A stretch of DNA of 64,000 bases. It comes from Sulfurimonas sp. GTDB taxonomy: Bacteria > Campylobacterota > Campylobacteria > Campylobacterales > Sulfurimonadaceae. How positions within the stretch are numbered: the stretch's first letter is position 1; each line of letters opens with the position of its first letter. The position numbers and the translations under genes are program-made. Shown in pieces: positions 13,175 to 24,688 of this stretch. The notes below the pieces were generated by a model that was not told the origin of the DNA, searched no databases, and was given only the letters and a program-made list of their open reading frames with translations. The stretch is taken from contig JAUZRZ010000025.1 in NCBI GenBank assembly GCA_030949945.1, positions 1-64,000 of the forward strand, written 5' to 3'.

Positions 13175-13918
13175 CTATTTAATCCTTTTTAGCAGTTCTT
13201 TTACACAGTTGTTATAGTCTTTCATTCCCTTAGAACGTTTTTCATCCAAGATGATAGGTTTTCCAGATTCAAATTGCTGTGCTAATTTAATATCTACACC
13301 TATAGGAGAGAGTAGCTTCTCTTTACCAAAAGACTTTTTTATCTTCTTTAGAGACTCTTTATGCTCATTTATATGAGGATTATACATAACAGGCAAGATA
13401 CAAACATCTGCTATCTCTCTTCCTTGCACTTTTGCAGTTTGATAGAGAGCTCGTAGCATCTGTCCAACTGCCACAACACCTAAGTGATGCGGTACAAAAG
13501 GGATAAGCAGACTATCTGCAACTTCAAGTGAATTTTTCAATAATGCATCATATGTTGGAGGTGTATCAATAACACAATAATCAAAAAAATCTGCTATTTT
13601 TTCTCGCCTGAAGCGATTTTTAAGTATGCCACGAAGGTCGGAGTACTCATATACATCAAAGTTTACAAGTGCTGGTGAGAGAGTAAGGTTTTTATGTACA
13701 GTAGGAATAAAAGTCTCGCTCAGGGTTGCACCGTCAAAAACAGAGTGTACACCAAGTGTTTCACTAGGCTCACAGCCTACCCCAATAGATGCATGACCCT
13801 GTGTGTCCATATCCAAAAGTAATACTGAAGCTTTTTTTGCTAATCCACTAGCAATATTTACAGCAGTTGTTGTTTTTGCTGAGCCACCTTTACGATTACT
13901 AACTACAATGGTTTTCAC
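13175..13918 (-). CDS. ParA/MinD-type ATPase of chemosensory cluster I
   Basis: A ~247-aa deviant-Walker ATPase. NRKGGSAKTTTAVNIASGLA is the P-loop with the signature lysine; LLLDMDTQGHAS and DYCVIDTPPTYDALL are the Walker A' and B regions; PIILDEKRSKGMKDY is near the C-terminus as in ParA proteins. ParA-type proteins encoded with chemotaxis genes (ParC in Vibrio, PpfA in Rhodobacter) position and segregate chemosensory arrays, so the same job is inferred here. The GTG start at 13918 is preferred to a TTG at 13927 because AAGGA lies ~10 nt before the GTG and only 1 nt before the TTG. It overlaps the end of the STAS-like gene by 20 bp. The other chemosensory cluster carries its own ParA. Confidence 0.88.
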   Translation of the reverse strand: MKTIVVSNRKGGSAKTTTAVNIASGLAKKASVLLLDMDTQGHASIGVGCEPSETLGVHSVFDGATLSETFIPTVHKNLTLSPALVNFDVYEYSDLRGILKNRFRREKIADFFDYCVIDTPPTYDALLKNSLEVADSLLIPFVPHHLGVVAVGQMLRALYQTAKVQGREIADVCILPVMYNPHINEHKESLKKIKKSFGKEKLLSPIGVDIKLAQQFESGKPIILDEKRSKGMKDYNNCVKELLKRIK

Positions 13919-14168
13919 TAGTGTCAAATCCTTCTAATACAGTTTGATATAAAAGCTTTTCTTCATTAAAAATATAAGAACAAGTATAGTTTTTTTTATA
14001 TGCCATTATAAGTTGAAGTATAGCTAGATGAATATCTTCACACTCTCTAAAGTTAAAAGAGATCTCTTCGCCTGCTTTTTCTTGTAAAAAATCTCGAAAA
14101 GCGACTAACTCATTTTCATATATTACAGATGAAAAACTTGCTTCATTATTTTCATAAGTTATTGACAT
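13899..14168 (-). CDS. STAS-like small protein of chemosensory cluster I
   Basis: An 89-aa protein with the alternating strand/helix pattern of anti-sigma-antagonist (STAS) domains: SSVIYENELVAFRDFLQEK, EISFNFRECEDIHLAILQLIMAY, CSYIFNEEKLLYQTVL. The usual phospho-acceptor serine after the conserved Asp is not evident; ECEDIHLA takes that position, so it is probably not a classical phosphoswitch. It lies between the CheW-CZB gene and parA with an overlapping end. Cluster II has a clearer STAS gene (51550-51804), which supports the assignment by context. Function is unknown. Confidence 0.6.
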   Translation of the reverse strand: MSITYENNEASFSSVIYENELVAFRDFLQEKAGEEISFNFRECEDIHLAILQLIMAYKKNYTCSYIFNEEKLLYQTVLEGFDTSENHCS

Positions 14169-14178
14169 CTTCTCTCCT

Positions 14179-14943
14179 TTATTTTGGTAATTTTACAGTT
14201 TTGATTACATTAATCAAAACACCTTCAATATCTAAAACACCCTCTAGTTCTAAAAACTCACTCATTTCATTTTCACTCACATTATTATTTATACTCTCTT
14301 CTTCAATATGTGCAATATCTTCTATTATATCTACTTTAATTGCAAATAGACTACCATTGTTATCATAAATAATTAATTTCTGTAAAGAGTTAGCAACTAA
14401 GTCTAACTCTTTTGTAAAAGTAACAAGTGCACCCATTGTATGCTCATATATAGCATTTATATCTATATTAAACATTCTAAGTGCTTCTTCTTTATCTTTT
14501 AGATAGAGTTCTAAAACATAGCCACCTGTAACATGTAACTGTTTATGATACTCTATGAGCTCATTTAATATCTCTATCACATGATCATCATAAGCTGTAA
14601 ATGAATCTATCCATTTTCCAAGACCACAAGCATGAGGATCAAGTGTTTTAGTAAAAGGGGCTCCTGTTTGCACTGAAAGCTTTAAAGATTCAACCCACTC
14701 TGCATGTCCCTTTTTGAGACTCTCAAAGAGAGCAATAAGTTCATCTTTATATGTTTGTACCTGTATCAACTTACGAAAACTAAGCACTTTAATCACTTTT
14801 TCTTCATAAGACATCATCCCATCAATATATTCATGAGAATTAGGAATATTTGTTAAAGGCATCGACTCGATAATACGCTGAACATTTTCGATATTCATAG
14901 CATATTTATTTCCAGCGACACTAAATACTATTAAGTCTGTCAT
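14179..14943 (-). CDS. CheW protein with an inserted CZB zinc-binding domain
   Basis: A 254-aa adaptor. Residues ~1-65 are the first half of a CheW domain (LIVFSVAGNKYAMNIENVQRI, YIDGMMSYEEKVIKVLSFRKLI). Residues ~170-254 are the second half (QKLIIYDNNGSLFAIKVDII, LELEGVLDIEGVLINVIKTV). Between them lies a full CZB (chemoreceptor zinc-binding) motif: HAEW, 22 residues, CGLGKW, 21 residues, HKQLH. This matches the published Hxx[WFYL]-x21-28-CxLGxW-x18-27-HxxxH pattern. CZB domains bind zinc and, in receptors such as H. pylori TlpD and in some diguanylate cyclases, respond to zinc or hypochlorous acid. Here the sensor would modulate a CheA-coupling adaptor directly. It lies immediately downstream of cheA (13 bp). 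Confidence 0.88.
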   Translation of the reverse strand: MTDLIVFSVAGNKYAMNIENVQRIIESMPLTNIPNSHEYIDGMMSYEEKVIKVLSFRKLIQVQTYKDELIALFESLKKGHAEWVESLKLSVQTGAPFTKTLDPHACGLGKWIDSFTAYDDHVIEILNELIEYHKQLHVTGGYVLELYLKDKEEALRMFNIDINAIYEHTMGALVTFTKELDLVANSLQKLIIYDNNGSLFAIKVDIIEDIAHIEEESINNNVSENEMSEFLELEGVLDIEGVLINVIKTVKLPK

Positions 14944-14955
14944 TATCTCTACTCC

Positions 14956-17691
14956 CTATGCTACTTGAATATCTTCTTTTAATTTTTGGCTTATACCTAA
15001 AAGACCTAGTGGGTCCATTGCCATTATAATTTGACCATTTCCAAGTAGTGCTGTTCCACTAAAGAGAGGATGTCCTTCCATAATACCAACAAGTGGTTTT
15101 TGTACAACATCTAGTTGACCTAAGAACTCATTTACAACTACTGCTAATTGATTTTCTTTAATGTTTAGGACAACAATAGAGAGTGGTTTATCTTCCATAT
15201 CATCTTCATTTAACATAGACTTAATAAATAAAAGAGGAATCACATCCCCTCTAATATAAACAAAAGGCTCATTATGAAGATACTCTATCTCACTGCGTTC
15301 GATCTTCACTGTTTCACTAACACTATCCATGGGAATACCATAATGAATAGAGTTCATCTGCACATGAAGAAGTGAAGTGACCGCTAGAGACATAGGAATA
15401 GCAAGAGTTATCACTGTTCCTGCATTTGCTTTAGTAGTAATACCAATACTCCCTCCAAAACTTTCAATAGATTTTCGTACAACATCCATACCAACACCAC
15501 GTCCACTAAACTCAGTGATTGTATCTGCTGTTGAGAGACCAGGCAGAAGTACTAACTCTGCCATCTCTTTCTCACTCAGTGCATCTACCTGCTCTGGTGT
15601 CATAAGACCTTTTTCTAGTACTTTACTGGCAACTTTTTCTACATTTATACCAGCACCATCATCAGTAATTTCTATAATAATTCTATCAGATTGAGCATAA
15701 GCATTGAGCGTTACAGAACCAATAGGATTTTTTCCTTTTTTCTCACGAACATCTGGCATTTCAATACCATGGTCTAAAGAGTTTCTCATAATATGGATCA
15801 TAGGGTCAGCTAACATCTCAATCATATTTTTATCCAACTTAGTTTCGCCACCAAGCATATCTAGTTTTACTTTTTTACCTAAAGTTTTAGCAATATCACG
15901 CACAAGTTTAGGGTATCTGTCAAATACATACGAAATAGGTAACATTCTCATACCCATAATAAGGTCTTGGAGTTGCTCTGAGAGACGGTTTATAAAAATA
16001 TACTTATCCATTATCTCGCGTTTAATCTGATCATGAGTCATTCCAACAACATTATCAGCTAAGTAGGGGAGTGAGTTTTTAGCAACGAGTAACTCCCCAA
16101 CAACATTCATAAGACTATCAATAGACTCCTGTTCAACCTTTACGGTCTTACCAACTACAGCTTTATGTTTCTCTTCTTTTGGTTCTTTTTTACTCTTTAG
16201 AGCTTCTGGCTCTTTTACAACTTCAGATTCGACTTTTTTGACTTGAGGTACTTCTTGAACTTTCACTATTTCTACTGCATCAGCAACTTCTGTTACTTGT
16301 GCAGTTTTTTCTTCTTGAGTATCTGTACTAACTTCTTCTTCAGCTACTGCACTCTCAAGACCCAGTTGTTGAGCTAAAAAGGAGACTACACTCTCTTTGT
16401 CTGTAAGTTGGGGCATATCTGGTAAATATTTTCTTGTTTTTTCAAGAGTTACTACAATTCTAAGTAAATCATCACCCGTTTGTATATGATTTAGGGCTTT
16501 ATGCTGTTGCTCAAAAATATTTTTTAGTGCTTCTGCTATATGCTCATTTATTTCAGCGGGAACTTCTTGAGTAGAGACCTCTTCTTCTTTTGCCTCCTCT
16601 TCTTTTACCCGCTCTTGTGACTTAGATGCACTATAAGCTTCTCCTCTATACAAAGAAGCAAAAAAGCCATTAAGTTTATCTTTATCTTCTTCTTTTATCA
16701 TCCCTATAATGTCTAATAAACGTGTGAGTTGTGCATGCTGAATTGTCTCAATGCCAACAAGCTTAGTAGCACTCTGTAGTTCCTCTTTTATAGTGTTTAA
16801 ATCAGCTTTTTGTGTGATATTTACAAGCTCTTTGAGTGAGTCTATCTGCAGACCAGTATCCCCTCTATTTACTTCAAGGAGTGTTTGTATATCTAAGGGA
16901 AGAAATTCTAACTCATCTATGAAGTTAAAAAGTGAATCCTCTATCTCCTCATAAGTAGCATAAATAAACGCAACTAAAGAAGTTTTTAGAAGTAAACCCT
17001 CCGAGTCCTCTGTTCCACTCAGTACAGACTTTGTGTTTTCATCACTCATACAAGAGTAAACACCTACAACTTTCTCTTCTAAAAGACTCAAAGTATATAT
17101 AGGGTCGTTTCCATAAACCATACATGCATCATCTATATCAAAGCTAACAGCATATAAGTTAGTATCTAAACAAAATTTCTCATCAACTTCATCTTGTTTA
17201 AAAGGAATCTTAATATTAGAAACATTACGAAGTGTATTTAATGGAAGATTTATAATTTTATTTCTATCTGCTAAAATAAAAGGACACGACCAGCTAACTT
17301 CACTCTCAGTTTCTTTACCCATCTCTTCGTGTAAACTTGCAACTATTTCTGCCACAGTCTCTTCATCAGCCTCAACAATTCCCCCTGTCTCTTCAGCTGC
17401 TTCAATCAAGTTTACTACCTCATCAAAAGCATTATAAAGAACATCTATCATACTAGGGTTAAATTCTAGTTTTCCTGAGCGAAGCATATCTAGTAAATCT
17501 TCAGCATGATGTGTAATATCTTTTACAGCTTCAAAACCGACTATCCCGCTACCCCCTTTTAGAGTATGTGCAGCACGAAAGACAGAGTTTAAAAGTTCTG
17601 GATCATCCCCACCAATTTCACCAATATTTTGATCGATAAAAGCTAGGTTTTCTCTCGCTTCACTTAAAAATTGTTCTAATAATTGATCCAT
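14956..17691 (-). CDS. cheA: CheA-type chemosensory histidine kinase (cluster I)
   Basis: A 911-aa intact kinase. P1: AAHTLKGGSGIVGF with the phospho-accepting His at ~42. A long middle region (residues ~130-510) includes an uncommon P2-like domain (VSWSCPFILADRNK) and acidic or lysine-rich linkers. P3/P4: VVGELLVAKNSLPYL, RMLPISYVFDRYPKLVRD, the N box in IHIMRNSLDHGIEMP, ITDDGAGIN and FSGRGVGMDVV. A C-terminal CheW-like domain follows (HYGIPMDSVSETVKI, FLGQLDVVQKPL). There is no receiver domain. It phosphorylates CheY and CheB in response to receptor arrays. At 911 aa it is longer than the 688-aa CheA of cluster II. Neighbours are two CheYs and a CheZ-like protein upstream, CheW-CZB downstream. 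Confidence 0.95.
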   Translation of the reverse strand: MDQLLEQFLSEARENLAFIDQNIGEIGGDDPELLNSVFRAAHTLKGGSGIVGFEAVKDITHHAEDLLDMLRSGKLEFNPSMIDVLYNAFDEVVNLIEAAEETGGIVEADEETVAEIVASLHEEMGKETESEVSWSCPFILADRNKIINLPLNTLRNVSNIKIPFKQDEVDEKFCLDTNLYAVSFDIDDACMVYGNDPIYTLSLLEEKVVGVYSCMSDENTKSVLSGTEDSEGLLLKTSLVAFIYATYEEIEDSLFNFIDELEFLPLDIQTLLEVNRGDTGLQIDSLKELVNITQKADLNTIKEELQSATKLVGIETIQHAQLTRLLDIIGMIKEEDKDKLNGFFASLYRGEAYSASKSQERVKEEEAKEEEVSTQEVPAEINEHIAEALKNIFEQQHKALNHIQTGDDLLRIVVTLEKTRKYLPDMPQLTDKESVVSFLAQQLGLESAVAEEEVSTDTQEEKTAQVTEVADAVEIVKVQEVPQVKKVESEVVKEPEALKSKKEPKEEKHKAVVGKTVKVEQESIDSLMNVVGELLVAKNSLPYLADNVVGMTHDQIKREIMDKYIFINRLSEQLQDLIMGMRMLPISYVFDRYPKLVRDIAKTLGKKVKLDMLGGETKLDKNMIEMLADPMIHIMRNSLDHGIEMPDVREKKGKNPIGSVTLNAYAQSDRIIIEITDDGAGINVEKVASKVLEKGLMTPEQVDALSEKEMAELVLLPGLSTADTITEFSGRGVGMDVVRKSIESFGGSIGITTKANAGTVITLAIPMSLAVTSLLHVQMNSIHYGIPMDSVSETVKIERSEIEYLHNEPFVYIRGDVIPLLFIKSMLNEDDMEDKPLSIVVLNIKENQLAVVVNEFLGQLDVVQKPLVGIMEGHPLFSGTALLGNGQIIMAMDPLGLLGISQKLKEDIQVA

Positions 17692-17700
17692 AATATCTCC

Positions 17701-18069
17701 CTATTTCTTTACTAAAATATCTATATAAGCTTGCAGTTGGTCTGGTTTGATTGGTTTTGTCTCAAATAAATTAGCACCAACCTTGTATGCGTTTATCATA
17801 TCTTCTTCTTTTCTTTGTGTTGTAACCATAATAACGGGTACATCTTTGTTTGCCTCTTGCTTACGTAAATCTTTTATAAAAGAGTATCCATCCATAATAG
17901 GCATATTTACATCTACTAAATAGAGGTCAATATCTGCATCTAAACTTTTTTCTAATGCTTCCATTCCGTTTTCAGCCTCAACGATATTCATACTCATGCT
18001 CTTTAAAATAGAACCATGATAATTTCTTACTGTTTTTGAATCATCTACAACCATAACTGTTGCCATCAT
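17701..18069 (-). CDS. CheY-like single-domain response regulator
   Basis: A 122-aa receiver: VMVVDDSKTVRNYHGSIL (acidic pair), LYLVDVNMPIMDG with the phospho-acceptor Asp at ~53, IMVTTQRKEEDM (conserved Thr) and FETKPIKPDQLQ (conserved Lys). It has no output domain and is therefore a CheY-type messenger, or a phosphate sink as in systems with several CheYs. The first codon may be the second ATG. It lies 9 bp upstream of cheA, directly after the CheZ-like gene. Confidence 0.93.
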   Translation of the reverse strand: MMATVMVVDDSKTVRNYHGSILKSMSMNIVEAENGMEALEKSLDADIDLYLVDVNMPIMDGYSFIKDLRKQEANKDVPVIMVTTQRKEEDMINAYKVGANLFETKPIKPDQLQAYIDILVKK

Positions 18070-18075
18070 ATTCTC

Positions 18076-18474
18076 CTAAAAAAATTCTATCTCATCTTCT
18101 TCATTAGATTCACTAAGCTTACCCGAGAACCTACTCTTTTTATCTTTAGCATCAGCGAGGGTTACTCTTAGTTCTTCTTGTAACTTACCTATACTTTCTT
18201 GTGTTAAACCCTCGCCATCTTTATATCTCTCCGAATATACATCTATACTTTTTTTCACACTATCAATAGCTTCTATACTAGCACTTAATTGTTGAGAGAT
18301 AATATCTTGGTACTGTAGTGCCGTAGATATCTCTTCATCAATTTCAAGCTTGTTTTTTTCCATAAAGCTACTCATCTTCATTAAAGACTCATTTGAGAGT
18401 TCAATAACATCTGCTTGAACCTCTTTTATATGTGAAAGTAGTTCATCCATTGCATCGAGCATAAGCATATTCAT
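18076..18474 (-). CDS. miniature CheZ-like CheY phosphatase candidate
   Basis: A 132-aa all-helical protein. Residues 52-62 read ALQYQDIISQQ: the D57-x-x-x-Q61 spacing and context match the E. coli CheZ catalytic motif (QDLTGQ, D143/Q147). The C-terminus is an acidic tail ending in NEEDEIEFF, comparable to the C-terminal peptide of CheZ that docks on CheY (VDDLLDSLGF). The protein is much shorter than E. coli CheZ (214 aa) and than the remote CheZ of H. pylori. It sits exactly between two CheY genes (6 and 5 bp gaps), as expected for a CheY-P phosphatase. The third in-frame ATG, at 18468, is better spaced from the AAAGGA site. Activity is inferred from motif and context. Confidence 0.72.
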   Translation of the reverse strand: MNMLMLDAMDELLSHIKEVQADVIELSNESLMKMSSFMEKNKLEIDEEISTALQYQDIISQQLSASIEAIDSVKKSIDVYSERYKDGEGLTQESIGKLQEELRVTLADAKDKKSRFSGKLSESNEEDEIEFF

Positions 18475-18479
18475 ATCCT

Positions 18480-18854
18480 TTATGCAGGTAAACGCAGCAC
18501 TCTAGTTATAGCCTGCTTTAACTGTGCTGGCTTAAATGGTTTGACTATCCATCCAGTAAGTCCTAGTGCTTTACCTTGTTGCTTTAACTCAGGTTTTGTC
18601 TCAGTTGTAAGCATTAATGTTGGTGTTCTACTTGTTGCAGGAACGCCCCTTAGCCCTTTTAAAAACTCAAACCCATTCATTACAGGCATATTTAAATCTG
18701 TAATAATTAAGTCAGGTGTCATTCCTGCTTTTATCTCTGCAAGTGCTACTTGAGCCTCTGTGTATTGTTTAACCTCTATAGGCATAGAGTTTGTCACCAT
18801 TCTTGTTGAAGCTAACGCTGTCTCACTATCATCTACGAATATTACTAATGGCAT
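18480..18854 (-). CDS. CheY-like single-domain response regulator
   Basis: A 124-aa receiver: LVIFVDDSETALASTRMV, LIITDLNMPVMNGFEFL with the acceptor Asp, TPTLMLTTETKPELKQQ (Thr) and GWIVKPFKPAQLKQ (Lys). In sequence it resembles the CheY of cluster II (51814-52182), with TTE and the KPF motif. It is the second CheY of cluster I, immediately upstream of the CheZ-like gene. Its last codons contain one copy of the recurrent 8-mer CTGCGTTT. Confidence 0.93.
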   Translation of the reverse strand: MPLVIFVDDSETALASTRMVTNSMPIEVKQYTEAQVALAEIKAGMTPDLIITDLNMPVMNGFEFLKGLRGVPATSRTPTLMLTTETKPELKQQGKALGLTGWIVKPFKPAQLKQAITRVLRLPA

Positions 18855-18876: not shown

Positions 18877-19707
18877 TTATTTTTGATATATCAATGTTGT
18901 GTCTACTTTTTTGGCATTAAATACCGAAACAATTCGACTCATATATTCAGCATGTCCTAAAAGAACATAACCACCTGGGTTTAGCATGTCATAAAATGTC
19001 ATAGCAACTTCTTTGCGTGATGCATCATCAAAATAGATAAGCATATTTCTTGAAAAGATGACATCAAATTTTCCAAGACTACGCATCTGTGCTTTGTCAA
19101 ATATATTAACTACTTGAAAATCAACACTACCTTTAAGTTCATCCCCTAGTTCATAACCGAGTGACTTTTTCTTAAACCATCGAGCGAGGATATCTTTAGG
19201 TATGGCATGAACAGCCCTATCACTGTACCTTGCCAGCTCTGCTTTTTTGATAACTGTCGAGTCTATATCTATCCCAACAACTTCAATATCTCTCTGCTCA
19301 ACCACAGTTCCCTCCTCCACAATATGGAGAATCATAGAGTAAGGCTCTTCCCCTGTTGAGCAGGGAGAAGAGAGTATTCTCAAAGTTTTTGAAGGAGGCA
19401 GAGTCTTATGAAGTTCTGGCAAAATTCTATTTACCAAAACCTCAAACTGATCTTTTTCTCTAAAAAAGTATGTCTCATTTACAGTAATTGCATTCATCAA
19501 CTCTTGAAATTCCAATCCTTCTTTATCTTCAAAACGAAGTTTAAAAAAGTACTTTCTAAAATTGTCTAAAGAGAGCTCACTTGCGCGTTTGTCAACATGT
19601 TTTGCTAACTTTTCATAGTGTTTGGAAACTTCTAAGCTTATTCCACTTTTTCTATAAATAAACTCACCTAATTTAGTAAAATTCTCTTTGGATAAAAGAT
19701 AGCTCAT
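18877..19707 (-). CDS. cheR: CheR-type receptor methyltransferase (cluster I)
   Basis: A 276-aa SAM-dependent glutamate methyltransferase acting on receptor signalling domains. Family features: NETYFFREKDQFEVL, ILSSPCSTGEEPYSM (SAM motif), EVVGIDIDSTVIKKA, DVIFSRNMLIYFDD and PGGYVLLGHAEYMSRI. It is complete. It is followed by cheY and preceded by the HEAT-like gene (5-bp gap). Its partner CheB is encoded at 20348-21418. Confidence 0.95.
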   Translation of the reverse strand: MSYLLSKENFTKLGEFIYRKSGISLEVSKHYEKLAKHVDKRASELSLDNFRKYFFKLRFEDKEGLEFQELMNAITVNETYFFREKDQFEVLVNRILPELHKTLPPSKTLRILSSPCSTGEEPYSMILHIVEEGTVVEQRDIEVVGIDIDSTVIKKAELARYSDRAVHAIPKDILARWFKKKSLGYELGDELKGSVDFQVVNIFDKAQMRSLGKFDVIFSRNMLIYFDDASRKEVAMTFYDMLNPGGYVLLGHAEYMSRIVSVFNAKKVDTTLIYQK

Positions 19708-19712
19708 CAGAC

Positions 19713-20336
19713 CTACCCTTTTATCATGGTAATAGCACCATCTACAGCAAATTCAACATAAACTTCACCACTAAAACGTTCTTTTAAAGACTCCAAAAGA
19801 GGTATATCTTCAAGCTCTCCAATCTCACCCATATAATCAACCGCAGTCATCGCTACATTAATATCTTCTTCTGTTTCTAGTAGTTCTATAAGCATATCAC
19901 GGGACTCGCTGAAGTTTACATCACCTAAAACATTAATAGCAAATATTCTTAAATCGCGGTCATCCCCAATTAAAAACTTTACTATATAATATTTTATAGA
20001 ATCACCAAAGTCTCGTAACATAGAGATACCAAGATTTCTCACATAAGCATTGTCAAGTTTTAACAACTCCATTATCATCTCAATAGGTGCTTCATCTGGA
20101 TCCATAGATGAAATTGCAGAAGCTATTTTTGTTGAGACTGGTCTATGTGCATCATCACGATAAATATACTCTATTAGAAACTCAGGACCCTTGTGAAACT
20201 TTATAATTTGTTCAATCATATCATCTTTTTGAGCATTCTCATCTGTTTCGTTAAAAGCATTTATAGCTTCTTCTAAACTCTCATATTGTTCGAGTTCAGG
20301 TACATCTTGTTTCACATGTGTTTTAACTAATGCCAT
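19713..20336 (-). CDS. HEAT-like repeat protein of the chemosensory operon
   Basis: A 207-aa protein with alpha-helical HEAT-like repeats: NAYVRNLGISMLRDFGDSIKYYIVK, DDRDLRIFAINVLGDVNFSESRDM and EDINVAMTAVDYMGEIGELEDI. The N-terminus (ESLEEAINAFNETDENAQKDD) is acidic. There is no signal peptide or membrane segment, so it is cytoplasmic. HEAT-like repeats usually serve as protein-binding scaffolds. Its position between cheB and cheR suggests a part in adaptation or array assembly, which is inference. Cluster II has no counterpart. Confidence 0.8.
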   Translation of the reverse strand: MALVKTHVKQDVPELEQYESLEEAINAFNETDENAQKDDMIEQIIKFHKGPEFLIEYIYRDDAHRPVSTKIASAISSMDPDEAPIEMIMELLKLDNAYVRNLGISMLRDFGDSIKYYIVKFLIGDDRDLRIFAINVLGDVNFSESRDMLIELLETEEDINVAMTAVDYMGEIGELEDIPLLESLKERFSGEVYVEFAVDGAITMIKG

Positions 20337-20347
20337 ACACTTCTCCC

Positions 20348-21418
20348 TTATCTTAAAGTTGCTATTTTTTTAAGGATGTCACTAAAGTCAAGTTGTTCTT
20401 GAACTCCACCTCTCTCATATGCCTCTTTAGGCATACCATATACTGTAGCGCTCTCTTCGCTCTCACCTAAAGTATATGCACCTGCTTTTTTGATTTTCGC
20501 CATAGCATCAGCACCATCATCACCGATGCCTGTAAGTATTACACCTACTAAATTTTTGCCATCAAATGTTTTTAATGCAGATTCCATCATTGTATTAACA
20601 CTCGGTTGAAAAAAACTCTTACCCTTCTCTTTATCTTCTCGAATAACAATTTTTCCAGATACTTTTTTAGTAAAACCCATATGAACACCACCACGGGCAA
20701 GATAAACAGCACCTGGTAAAAGTTCTAAATTTTGTTCTGATTCATAAACTGGAAGTACACATGTTCTTGCTAAACGCTGAGCAAAGGCTGTAGTAAATTG
20801 TGCTGGCATATGCTGAACAATACAGACTGTATGTTTAAAATCAGCTGGGAGTGATGCACAAATCTGCTCTATTAAACCCGGTCCACCAGTCGAAGAGCCT
20901 ATAAGTATCACTTTTTGAAGATCTAATGAACTACGAGTTTCACATATCTCATTTTCACTCTGTTGAGGCTCCGCACGGCGACGTTTTCTTGAGGCCACTC
21001 GTAACATCTTTCTTTTAAGATGTCTAGAAGAAATTTTACTCAGGGAGCTAAGCTTAGTTAAAATCTCTTCACGATTTTCACTTTTACCAATATTCATGGT
21101 TCCTGGTTTAGCTATATAGTCAATTGCTCCTAAATCTAAAGCATCCATCGTAATTGAAGCATCTTTAGTAGTGAGAGAACTCACCATTAAAATAGGAGTA
21201 GGTTGTGCCTTCATAATCTGCTTCACTGCTTCTATGCCATCCATAATTGGCATATTAATATCCATAGTAATAACATCAAACTGTTTTTGAGTCGCCTTAC
21301 TCACTGCTTCTTGACCATTTTTTGCAAACTCTATTTCAAAATCTAATGTCTCTATAATTTGAGATAATTGTTTTCTCACAAGTGCCGAGTCATCTACTAT
21401 AAGTACACTTTTTCTCAT
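20348..21418 (-). CDS. cheB: CheB methylesterase/deamidase (cluster I)
   Basis: A 356-aa protein with an N-terminal receiver (SVLIVDDSALVRKQLSQII, DVITMDINMPIMDG, MVSSLTT, YIAKPGT) and a C-terminal methylesterase. The catalytic triad is visible: Ser in LIGSSTGGPGLIEQ, His in IVQHMPAQFTTAF and Asp in ILTGIGDDGADAM. It demethylates receptor glutamates when phosphorylated by CheA. The linker is basic (KRKMLRVASRKRRRAEP). It overlaps the triple-CheW gene by 4 bp. Confidence 0.96.
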   Translation of the reverse strand: MRKSVLIVDDSALVRKQLSQIIETLDFEIEFAKNGQEAVSKATQKQFDVITMDINMPIMDGIEAVKQIMKAQPTPILMVSSLTTKDASITMDALDLGAIDYIAKPGTMNIGKSENREEILTKLSSLSKISSRHLKRKMLRVASRKRRRAEPQQSENEICETRSSLDLQKVILIGSSTGGPGLIEQICASLPADFKHTVCIVQHMPAQFTTAFAQRLARTCVLPVYESEQNLELLPGAVYLARGGVHMGFTKKVSGKIVIREDKEKGKSFFQPSVNTMMESALKTFDGKNLVGVILTGIGDDGADAMAKIKKAGAYTLGESEESATVYGMPKEAYERGGVQEQLDFSDILKKIATLR

Positions 21419-22791
21419 AATAACCGCTCTTTAGATACAATCTTGTCAATATCCATAGAGAGAACTAATCTCTCTCCATCATTAAGATGCAAGATATTAT
21501 TAAAGTAGCCATCATGTTCTTCTCGAATATCTTCTTGTTTAACTGTTAAAATATCACTTACACTATCTACTACAAAACCTATACGATTATCACTAATTTT
21601 ACATACAATAATTTTTGAGTCTTCATTTGTTATAGCTTCTAAGTTTAACTTATCAAAAAGAGAGATAGTTGTGACTATTTGTCCTCTAATATTTATAATT
21701 CCATCAATATAACTCTCTGTAAATGCAAGCTCAGTTGAAGCTACCATGTCCATAATTTCATCTACATACTCTATATCAAATGCATACTCTTTTTGTCCGA
21801 GTTTAAAAACTATCACTTCCATAGCATACTCATCACTCTCATCTACTACACTCTTTTTAATTGTAGACTCAACAAAAGCATCATTTTCTTTAAATATTTC
21901 TAAAATTAACTTCTCATTAAAAAAAGAGACAAGAGACTCTTCATCATGAATAACACCTGCTATTTTATTTCTCTCAAATGTATCGGACATATACTCAATA
22001 TTTCTTGTATAAAAGTTTTTAATATCAATAATAGAATCTATGTATAAGCCAATTTTCTTTCCATCATAAGAGATCACTAAAATACGATTTTCATCACTTT
22101 GTGTGGATTCAAATCCATAATATCTTCTCAAATCTATAACCATCAAAAGTTCTTCTCTTAAAGTTATAAGTCCTATCAACTCACTCGATGAACCTGCAAC
22201 CTCAGTAAAATCTTGATCTGCTAATATTATCTCTTGAAGATAGTCAATTTCTAAAGCATATCTCTCTCTTGACATAGAAAAAATAAGAAATCTTGTACTA
22301 TCTTCTTCTGCTATATTCTTTTCTTTGACTTTTCCTGTAACAACTTCTTTTGCAGGAATATTGACTCTATTTATTTTTAAAAACAACTCCTCAAGTGAGA
22401 GTACTTGAACAAGTAAATCTTTATATTTATATATTGCTATAACAGGGTCATCTCTATTTTCTAGATAATCAATATTCTCTTGTTCAATCTCAACTGTATT
22501 ATAAACATCACTAACAAGCAAAGTATTTGATGAGAGTTCTCCAGTAAAACTCACAACTCTGCTTTTATGCTCATTTATATCTACTTCTTTAAAACCAAGA
22601 AGTAAATTCATATCAACCATAGCAACAACGTTTCCACCAACTGAACATAAACCTCTTACCCCAGATGGACGTAGGGGCAGAGGCATTAAGTCTGGAACTC
22701 TTGAAATTTGATTTATATATTCAGTTGAAATACCATAGTTTTCATGATCATTTTGAACAATTAAAATCTCTTGAATTTGCATCTTTTGCAC
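21415..22791 (-). CDS. adaptor with three CheW domains in tandem
   Basis: A 458-aa protein made of three successive CheW-like domains. Domain 1 is ~5-140 (EILIVQNDHENYGISTEYI, VRGLCSVGGNVVAMVDMNLLL). Domain 2 is ~170-310 (RFLIFSMSRERYALEIDYL, LIGLITLREELLMVIDLRRYY). Domain 3 is ~320-455 (EVIVFKLGQKEYAFDIEYV, IDGIINIRGQIVTTISLFDKL, RIGFVVDSVSDIL). There is no receiver, so it is not a CheV. Multi-CheW proteins could bridge several CheA or receptor contacts in an array. It lies between cheB (4-bp overlap) and the receptor gene. Confidence 0.9.
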   Translation of the reverse strand: MQKMQIQEILIVQNDHENYGISTEYINQISRVPDLMPLPLRPSGVRGLCSVGGNVVAMVDMNLLLGFKEVDINEHKSRVVSFTGELSSNTLLVSDVYNTVEIEQENIDYLENRDDPVIAIYKYKDLLVQVLSLEELFLKINRVNIPAKEVVTGKVKEKNIAEEDSTRFLIFSMSRERYALEIDYLQEIILADQDFTEVAGSSSELIGLITLREELLMVIDLRRYYGFESTQSDENRILVISYDGKKIGLYIDSIIDIKNFYTRNIEYMSDTFERNKIAGVIHDEESLVSFFNEKLILEIFKENDAFVESTIKKSVVDESDEYAMEVIVFKLGQKEYAFDIEYVDEIMDMVASTELAFTESYIDGIINIRGQIVTTISLFDKLNLEAITNEDSKIIVCKISDNRIGFVVDSVSDILTVKQEDIREEHDGYFNNILHLNDGERLVLSMDIDKIVSKERLL

Positions 22792-22798
22792 CTGTTAT

Positions 22799-24688
22799 TT
22801 AACCTTGTTGTAGTTCATCTGCCATCACAGCTAACTCTTCAACACCTTCACCAATATGAGTTACAGTGTCAATAATGAGCTCACTCGCCTTACGCGATTC
22901 ACTTGCATTTTTAGCACTCAAGTTCTACTGCTTTTTGAATTTCACTTATTCCTATCATCACTTGATTCATTCCCTCTAAATTCTGGTCATTTGCAGATTT
23001 TAGTCCTGTATATTTATCAAGCAGATCAACAAGTATATCTGTAATTCCAATGATGTCATTCACAACAGATGAGATACTATCCTCTTCTGTTGCTTGTGAG
23101 TTGAGCAGCTCTCCCCAGTCACTTTTAACAGTGTCAATCTCAGAGTTCATTGACTCAACAATATCATTTATCTTTTCTGTGTTACTCTCTGAGTCTTTTG
23201 CAAGATTTCTAATATCAGAAGAAACAACAGCAAAACCTTTTCCAAAGTCACCAGCACGAGCAGCTTCAATAGAACCACTAATAGCGAGCATATTTAGTTG
23301 TACAATAGAGTTAGAGATATTTCCAACTGTTTTATCAACACTCTTAGTCTCTTTTACTATTACATTTAACTCCGTTGCTGCACTATTTCCCTCTTTTATA
23401 GAGTCAGAAAATGATGCTTTAATTTCTATAACAGAAGCTTTTACTTCATTAAAAGATATTTTTAACAAATCAAAGTTTCTTCTTGCAATTTCTATAAGTT
23501 TGTCAATATCTTTTGCAACACCCAGACCTGATTCTATGAGTTCTTTATTATTTAAAGCACTCTGATTTGTATTTTGAGAAGACTCTTCCATTTGATTTAG
23601 TGCGCCTGTCACATCCTCAAGAGCATTTTGAATCTCATCCATAGAAGCACTAATAGTATCTGCACTAAGAGCAATATCTTCAGCTGACTTCATAGTGTCT
23701 GTTGAATATTTTAACTCTTCTGCTTGGTTAGACAACTCTTTTATATCATCTTCGGTTTGTCCGAGTGCATCTGATTGTACTTCAATAGAGTTGAGAGTTT
23801 TTTCTACCGATAGAGCTATCTCAGCTGAAGCTTTTGCTATATCACTAGAACCTTCATTGATTTTTCTATAAAACTATCAAGTTGTCCTGTATATAAACCT
23901 ATACTTCTTGCAGCCTCTACTGAATAAACTGCAATTTTTGTAAGCTCTTCCATTTTTAATGCTAAATCATTACCCTTAGAACCATTATCTGAAATAATAT
24001 CTGTAGTTGCCCCAATACTTTTAATAATGCCATCAATACTACTTTGAATTTTATTTACAAGTTCAGAAATAAACTCTGCATTTTTTTCACTCTCACCAGC
24101 TAAGGCACGTGTCTCATCAGCAACTACTGCAAAACCTTTACCATGCTCTTTTGCACGAGATGCTTCTATGGCTGCGTTTAATGCAAGTAAATTAGTCTGA
24201 TCTGCAATTTTTGCAATAAAGCCAACCGCATTTCCAATATTTTGAGAAGACTCTTTTAACTCTTCACTTTTTGTAGATGACTCTTTTGCAACACTTACAG
24301 CAGAGGCCATTCGAGATACTGAGATATTAATTTTTTCAACTGCACTCATGATATTATCACCCGCTACAACTGTTGATGTCTCAACTGCATTAATAGTAGT
24401 AGTCATTCGCCCAATATTAGTACTAATATTTTTAACATTGGAGAGTGCTTGTTCACTTGCACCATTGTTCTCCTCTGCCGCAGTAGCAATCTGCTCCATT
24501 GAAGATTTTAGTTGCTCGATCGCACTTACACTCTCTTGTGCATTTTCTAGTATACTTATAGAAACACCTGCTAAACTTTCACTAATTTGTTGCTGTTTTG
24601 CCAAAGTTCTTTGTTTGCGTTTATCAACCCCACCTGAAGAGACTACTGCTGAAGATGAACTCGAATTACCGTTTTTCATTAATGCCAT
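22799..24688 (-). CDS. soluble chemoreceptor with two tandem signalling tips (two frame breaks)
   Basis: A ~630-aa receptor without any membrane segment; the N-terminus is a polar linker ([16 protein letters not shown]). The first signalling hairpin has the canonical tip ([34 protein letters not shown]). One shift near 23866 restores [15 protein letters not shown] and continues into a second helical module with a degenerate tip ([35 protein letters not shown]). Another shift near 22915 restores the C-terminus ([20 protein letters not shown]) to a stop at 22799. It lacks its own sensor domain; the PAS protein encoded 17 bp upstream probably supplies it, as in the CetA/CetB pair of Campylobacter. 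The second tip departs from the near-invariant core, so it may not contact CheA normally. Confidence 0.83.

Follow-up and report, generated by a model that had tools for sequence, protein, structure and literature searches.

CheZ of E. coli speeds hydrolysis of the aspartyl phosphate of CheY-P by orienting the attacking water with two residues, D143 and Q147. Its fold is a four-helix bundle built from a dimer of hairpins, plus a linker, and the conserved sequence signature is a pair of motifs, AXX[FY]Q beside DXXXQ (PMC7750401). CheC and CheX act with an ExxN motif (PMC3510030). Among chemosensory classes, F9 is marked by a triple CheW together with a double-signalling DosM receptor (PMC9321776); in V. 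cholerae and other organisms it builds purely cytoplasmic, double-layered arrays, and its role and output are little understood (PMC7534058). Within the open-access literature searched, no signal-termination step was found described for F9.

The window considered here, 64,000 nucleotides of DNA analysed as one stretch, comes from Sulfurimonas, and its nearest relatives are Sulfurimonas as well. It holds a complete F9-class chemosensory cluster, and within it lies the gene for a protein of 132 residues, here called Z'. Along the minus strand the order is PAS protein, DosM-type receptor, triple CheW, CheB, HEAT-repeat protein, CheR, CheY1, Z', CheY2, CheA, CheW-CZB, an 89-residue protein, a ParA-like ATPase and a receiver protein (Table 1). 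Both class markers are present, as three CheW stretches in one gene and two MCPsignal stretches spread across a frameshifted one. The closest relatives of cheY2, by blastp to proteobacterial F9 CheY proteins, are the cheY genes that precede cheA in other F9 clusters. A preliminary description had called the Z' frame as a CheZ-like gene with CheY genes at most 6 bp away on either side, containing ALQYQDIISQQ with D57 and Q61 and ending in DEIEFF. The position, the neighbours (5 bp to the upstream cheY, 6 bp to the downstream one, both matched by Pfam Response_reg), the motif and the end (EEDEIEFF) are all as claimed; the minus strand and the F9 cluster were absent from that account.

Several other members of the cluster deserve mention in their own right. 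The DosM-type gene differs by two frame changes from an intact 628-residue homologue in locus L153, and these are probably assembly errors of the draft genome. CheW-CZB, present in L153 too, seems to belong to the usual gene set of F9 clusters in Campylobacterota. The 89-residue protein has weak similarity (blastp E 7e-5) to the small STAS-like protein whose gene follows cheA in L080, a proteobacterial F9 cluster, and the ParA-like ATPase, which may position the array, recurs in the F9 clusters of Methylosinus and Methylobacterium. A separate F3 CheZ is encoded in the same genome upstream of trhP, the gene for a U32 peptidase (L132), which is the place described for the phylum; the cell thus has a general CheZ other than Z'.

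Table 1. Features of the F9 cluster and of Z' (positions in the window unless a locus is named; among the 89 Z' loci cited, some contigs are counted twice)
Feature	Position	Strand	Basis or remark
Z' (132 aa), CheZ-like and predicted to act as a CheY-P phosphatase	18076..18474	minus	ORF with ATG start; 63-member family; profile links; AlphaFold
A52-LQYQD57-IIS-Q61, CheZ signature AxxYQ-DxxxQ	18292..18321	minus	Q54, D57, Q61, Q62 invariant
D57 codon, predicted catalytic residue	18304..18306	minus	invariant
Q61 codon, predicted water-positioning residue	18292..18294	minus	invariant
H15 codon	18430..18432	minus	invariant in 63/63 members
C-terminal -EIEFF peptide, predicted docking tail	18079..18093	minus	conservation in cluster-borne members
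cheY1, stand-alone receiver	18480..18854	minus	Pfam Response_reg 7.8e-21; precedes Z' in 69/89 loci
cheY2, stand-alone receiver	17701..18069	minus	Pfam Response_reg 1.4e-27; follows Z' in 70/89 loci
cheA (F9 kinase)	14956..17691	minus	Hpt, H-kinase_dim, HATPase_c, CheW
cheR	18877..19707	minus	Pfam CheR 1.7e-50
HEAT-repeat protein, recurrent F9 gene	19713..20336	minus	Pfam HEAT_2; same place in proteobacterial F9 clusters
cheB, 356-aa ORF	20348..21418	minus	agrees with CheB of F9 clusters in sequence and place
Triple CheW (CheW3), F9 marker	21415..22791	minus	three CheW stretches, E 1.6e-65
DosM-type double-signalling receptor, frameshift-interrupted in assembly	22821..24688	minus	two MCPsignal matches
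CheW with CZB zinc-binding domain	14179..14943	minus	Pfam CheW and CZB
89-aa conserved protein	13899-14168	minus	after cheA and CheW-CZB
ParA-like ATPase	13175-13927	minus	
MCPs with CheZ-like C-terminal module	L080 19879-21195; L081 7867-9333 (-); L082 19157-20218; L083 20888-22186		proteobacterial F9 clusters

Nucleotide comparison with close relatives gives Z' a dN/dS of 0.10-0.25, which marks a real gene under purifying selection. The bare DxxxQ carries little meaning, since it turns up in 46% of shuffles of the Z' sequence; the extended form, A..[FY]QD...Q, appears in only 0.012% of them. Both CheZ motifs, AxxYQ and DxxxQ, are present in Z'. Among 63 non-redundant members of the family, seven positions are invariant (H15, Q54, D57, Q61, Q62, A109 and G118) and most of the remaining sequence is variable, so that the retention of DxxxQ in orthologues, which the preliminary description had proposed to check, is borne out for both residues. 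The final F132 is nearly invariant and is retained wherever a tail is present.

The helical character proposed for Z' from its sequence agrees with the AlphaFold model (63 sequences, mean pLDDT 85), a confidently predicted three-helix bundle with helices at residues 3-40, 47-88 and 92-122. In this monomer model the last 11 residues are disordered, and D57 and Q61 are predicted to lie one turn apart on helix 2. Foldseek and VIA-align searches with the model returned BAR domains, apolipoproteins and other generic bundles, with no CheZ among them; such matches fall below the level meaningful for helical proteins and are used here neither for nor against CheZ. A predicted helical bundle, adjoined by two receivers and with a histidine (H15) kept throughout the family, could also be read as HPt-like, with H15 passing phosphate from one CheY to the other. 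We regard this as extremely improbable: Pfam Hpt (PF01627) gives no match for Z', though it detects the Hpt domain of CheA; the Hpt histidine stands in an HxLKG-type context, in which Z' has no histidine; and the invariant DxxxQ would be left unexplained.

Searches of Pfam, NCBIfam and PDB sequences, with Z' alone and with its alignment, gave chance helical matches only. The CheZ family model PF04344 does not match Z' at E 10, nor is any match listed among the 63 members at 0.1; its cut-off is passed nowhere in this genome, and the accepted F3 CheZ is therefore missed by it as well. Profile-profile comparison (hhalign) is more informative. Z' and F3 CheZ, the remote epsilon type, align at a score of 37 (E ~3e-5), their D and Q falling in register, and the accepted pair of F3 and canonical CheZ scores 39 (E 4e-5) by the same method; control ceilings are 25 for locally shuffled profiles and 26 for helical profiles (CheA P1, HEAT and the CheR N-terminus). 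Against canonical CheZ directly, Z' scores 18 (E 0.04-0.06), in register but within background and not significant. The profile comparison suggested in advance for both kinds of CheZ links Z' to the F3 type directly and to the E. coli type by way of a further short family.

A weak match within the phylum (L102) led to a second short family, of ~110-130 residues, whose genes immediately precede cheA in clusters that also hold flagellar switch genes. In one Campylobacterota genus F14 clusters are linked with flagellar genes (PMC9321776), from which we infer an F14-type assignment; the family looks like an unannotated short CheZ of such systems. Its members at L162-L171 and L173 (171 residues in L173) have either QFQDIxxQ or QMQDIxxQ and, at the C-terminus, a DQNDIDAMF-like peptide. 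This family scores 43 with Z' (E 4e-7) and 35 with canonical CheZ (E 4.5e-5), the match covering the catalytic helix and C-terminal peptide, and since it matches both, it forms a bridge between them. As judged from sequence, the link of Z' to E. coli-type CheZ is only transitive, and Z' is CheZ-like in a wide sense, by the conserved Axx[FY]Q-DxxxQ on a predicted helix and by homology to an accepted CheZ. The CheZ-like reading first proposed for this gene gains support from the invariant motif, the profile links and the gene order.

Taken with the predicted helices, these features suggest that Z' is probably a minimal stand-alone CheZ-like phosphatase of the F9 system, for CheY1 and/or CheY2. 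In such an enzyme, D57 and Q61 would insert into the active site of the phosphorylated CheY and orient the attacking water so that the aspartyl phosphate is hydrolysed faster, in the manner of D143 and Q147 of E. coli CheZ, and the -EIEFF peptide, on a linker of only ~8 residues, would hold Z' to its partner.

Distribution and gene neighbourhoods bear on that partner. In searches covering 99 relatives, 397 phylum genomes and a species-wide genome collection, every Z' came from Campylobacterota, and tblastn against plasmids gave no match. (A close genome gave a second match, at L021 with E 7e-4, which was discarded as a coiled-coil membrane protein lacking the motif.) The order cheY1-Z'-cheY2 is found in 67 of 89 loci, some contigs being counted twice, with neighbouring genes no more than 42 bp apart or slightly overlapping, and supports CheY as the partner. 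A monophyletic Z' clade (support 99/88) occupies F7-like clusters, after cheB and beside a receiver-domain protein that scores weakly at some loci and is undetected at one. A third group is orphan, often near two large genes, and partly tail-less; at L072, L074 and L075 there are no chemotaxis neighbours, the adjoining genes encode ~570 and ~1050 residues, and some members have no tail. In two Campylobacterota F9 clusters Z' was not found: one of these is complete and keeps both cheY genes, and the other decides nothing, because its contig ends before the expected place of Z'.

Every cluster-borne member keeps the tail, in the form -[IV]E[FL]F or a near variant, whereas most orphans have it varied or lost. 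That of Z' is the only EIEFF-stop in the genome and differs from the C-terminal peptide of CheZ. A 339-residue protein with the same -EIEFF end is the first gene of both F9 clusters in which Z' was not found. It belongs to a widespread, sensor-like Sulfurimonadaceae family of ~340-380 residues (L153 2931-3950, L152 2983-4002 and L185-L204) with no Pfam match, whose C-terminal domain is rich in conserved residues (NxHHIHxPTxLSIxQII) and most of whose members end in -EIEFF. Across this wider family the tail is kept in most members and DxxxQ is not conserved, so the family is not counted as a phosphatase, and the notion of a phosphatase-specific tail was given up. If the tail can serve a non-catalytic role there, and if one related F9 cluster manages without Z', then Z' itself might bind CheY1 or CheY2 as an adaptor, localiser or phosphate-sink partner retained from a CheZ-like phosphatase ancestor. 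This we consider unlikely, for D57 and Q61 are invariant amid variable sequence, which would be unexpected had catalysis been lost.

Clues to how F9 systems more generally handle this step come from clusters gathered from plasmid records through triple-CheW and HEAT searches. The F9 clusters of Sphaerotilus, Methylosinus, Eleftheria and Methylobacterium each encode an MCP-domain protein that has [FY]QDxxxQ close to the C-terminus and -IELF as its exact end. With the tails left out, the MCP-borne module, known here from plasmid-borne clusters only, scores 37.6 with Z' (E 1e-5) and 61 with F3 CheZ (E 6e-9). By Pfam, a CheX-like protein is found in the F9 clusters of Rhizobium, Agrobacterium vitis and Novosphingobium, and a CheC-like protein in the four Azospirillum clusters examined. 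Most F9 clusters examined so carry some packaging of a predicted CheY-P phosphatase, which counts in favour of such a role for Z'. The chances seem about even that the catalytic helix of CheZ works as a portable module, which in F9 would exist as a free minimal three-helix protein or fused to a chemoreceptor C-terminus, where receptor state could gate CheY-P hydrolysis at the array, with CheC or CheX in other F9 clusters.

The -IELF ends of these receptors invite another reading of the tail. They stand at the place of the MCP pentapeptide, on proteins with a module homologous to Z', and the cluster in the window holds both cheR and cheB; -EIEFF could then be a receptor-style pentapeptide (like NWETF) that recruits CheR or CheB, with Z' tuning receptor methylation instead of, or besides, CheY-P. 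Both uses fit the tail, CheY docking as in CheZ and CheR/CheB recruitment as in receptor pentapeptides. We nevertheless think this reading of Z' very unlikely. Position 2 of the canonical receptor pentapeptide is aromatic, whereas I or M stands here; almost every F9 locus has the Z' gene beside cheY genes and not beside cheR; and such a role would account for the tail alone and not for DxxxQ.

A CheZ-like phosphatase is a known kind of protein. For the size of Z', its F9 setting, its family and the MCP-borne version, no description was found in the open-access literature, and an earlier description elsewhere is possible. A minimal predicted phosphatase between two F9 CheYs would offer a small, testable enzyme with defined substrates, and a version of 132 residues would show how little of CheZ suffices. 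It also alerts annotators to a missed family, and suggests that the phosphatase recruited for one and the same step differs among F9 clusters (CheZ-like, MCP-borne CheZ-like, or CheC/CheX).

Several systems can be set beside Z'. One is the Campylobacterota F3 CheZ (remote CheZ, H. pylori HP0170 type), with which it shares the QYQDIxxQ catalytic helix in register; that protein, however, has ~230 residues, an N-terminal MTQEELDALM and a C-terminal DDIEALLAQFG, and Z' has neither. E. coli CheZ (PF04344, PDB 1KMI) likewise carries AxxFQ-DxxxQ on a long helix and an acidic/hydrophobic C-terminal peptide, and its gene adjoins cheY, but it is 214 residues long and shows no direct significant match; the invariant H15 of Z' is without a CheZ counterpart. 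The F14-type short protein has a similar size, A-L-Q-x-QDIxxQ and an acidic C-terminal peptide, and differs in its DQNDIDAMF-like tail and in adjoining cheA rather than lying between cheY genes. In the proteobacterial F9 receptors (L080-L083) the homologous module, also ending in -IELF, is fused behind an MCP signalling domain. CheX and CheC of other F9 clusters would serve the same pathway step, mostly from beside a cheY, with an unrelated fold and a different motif.
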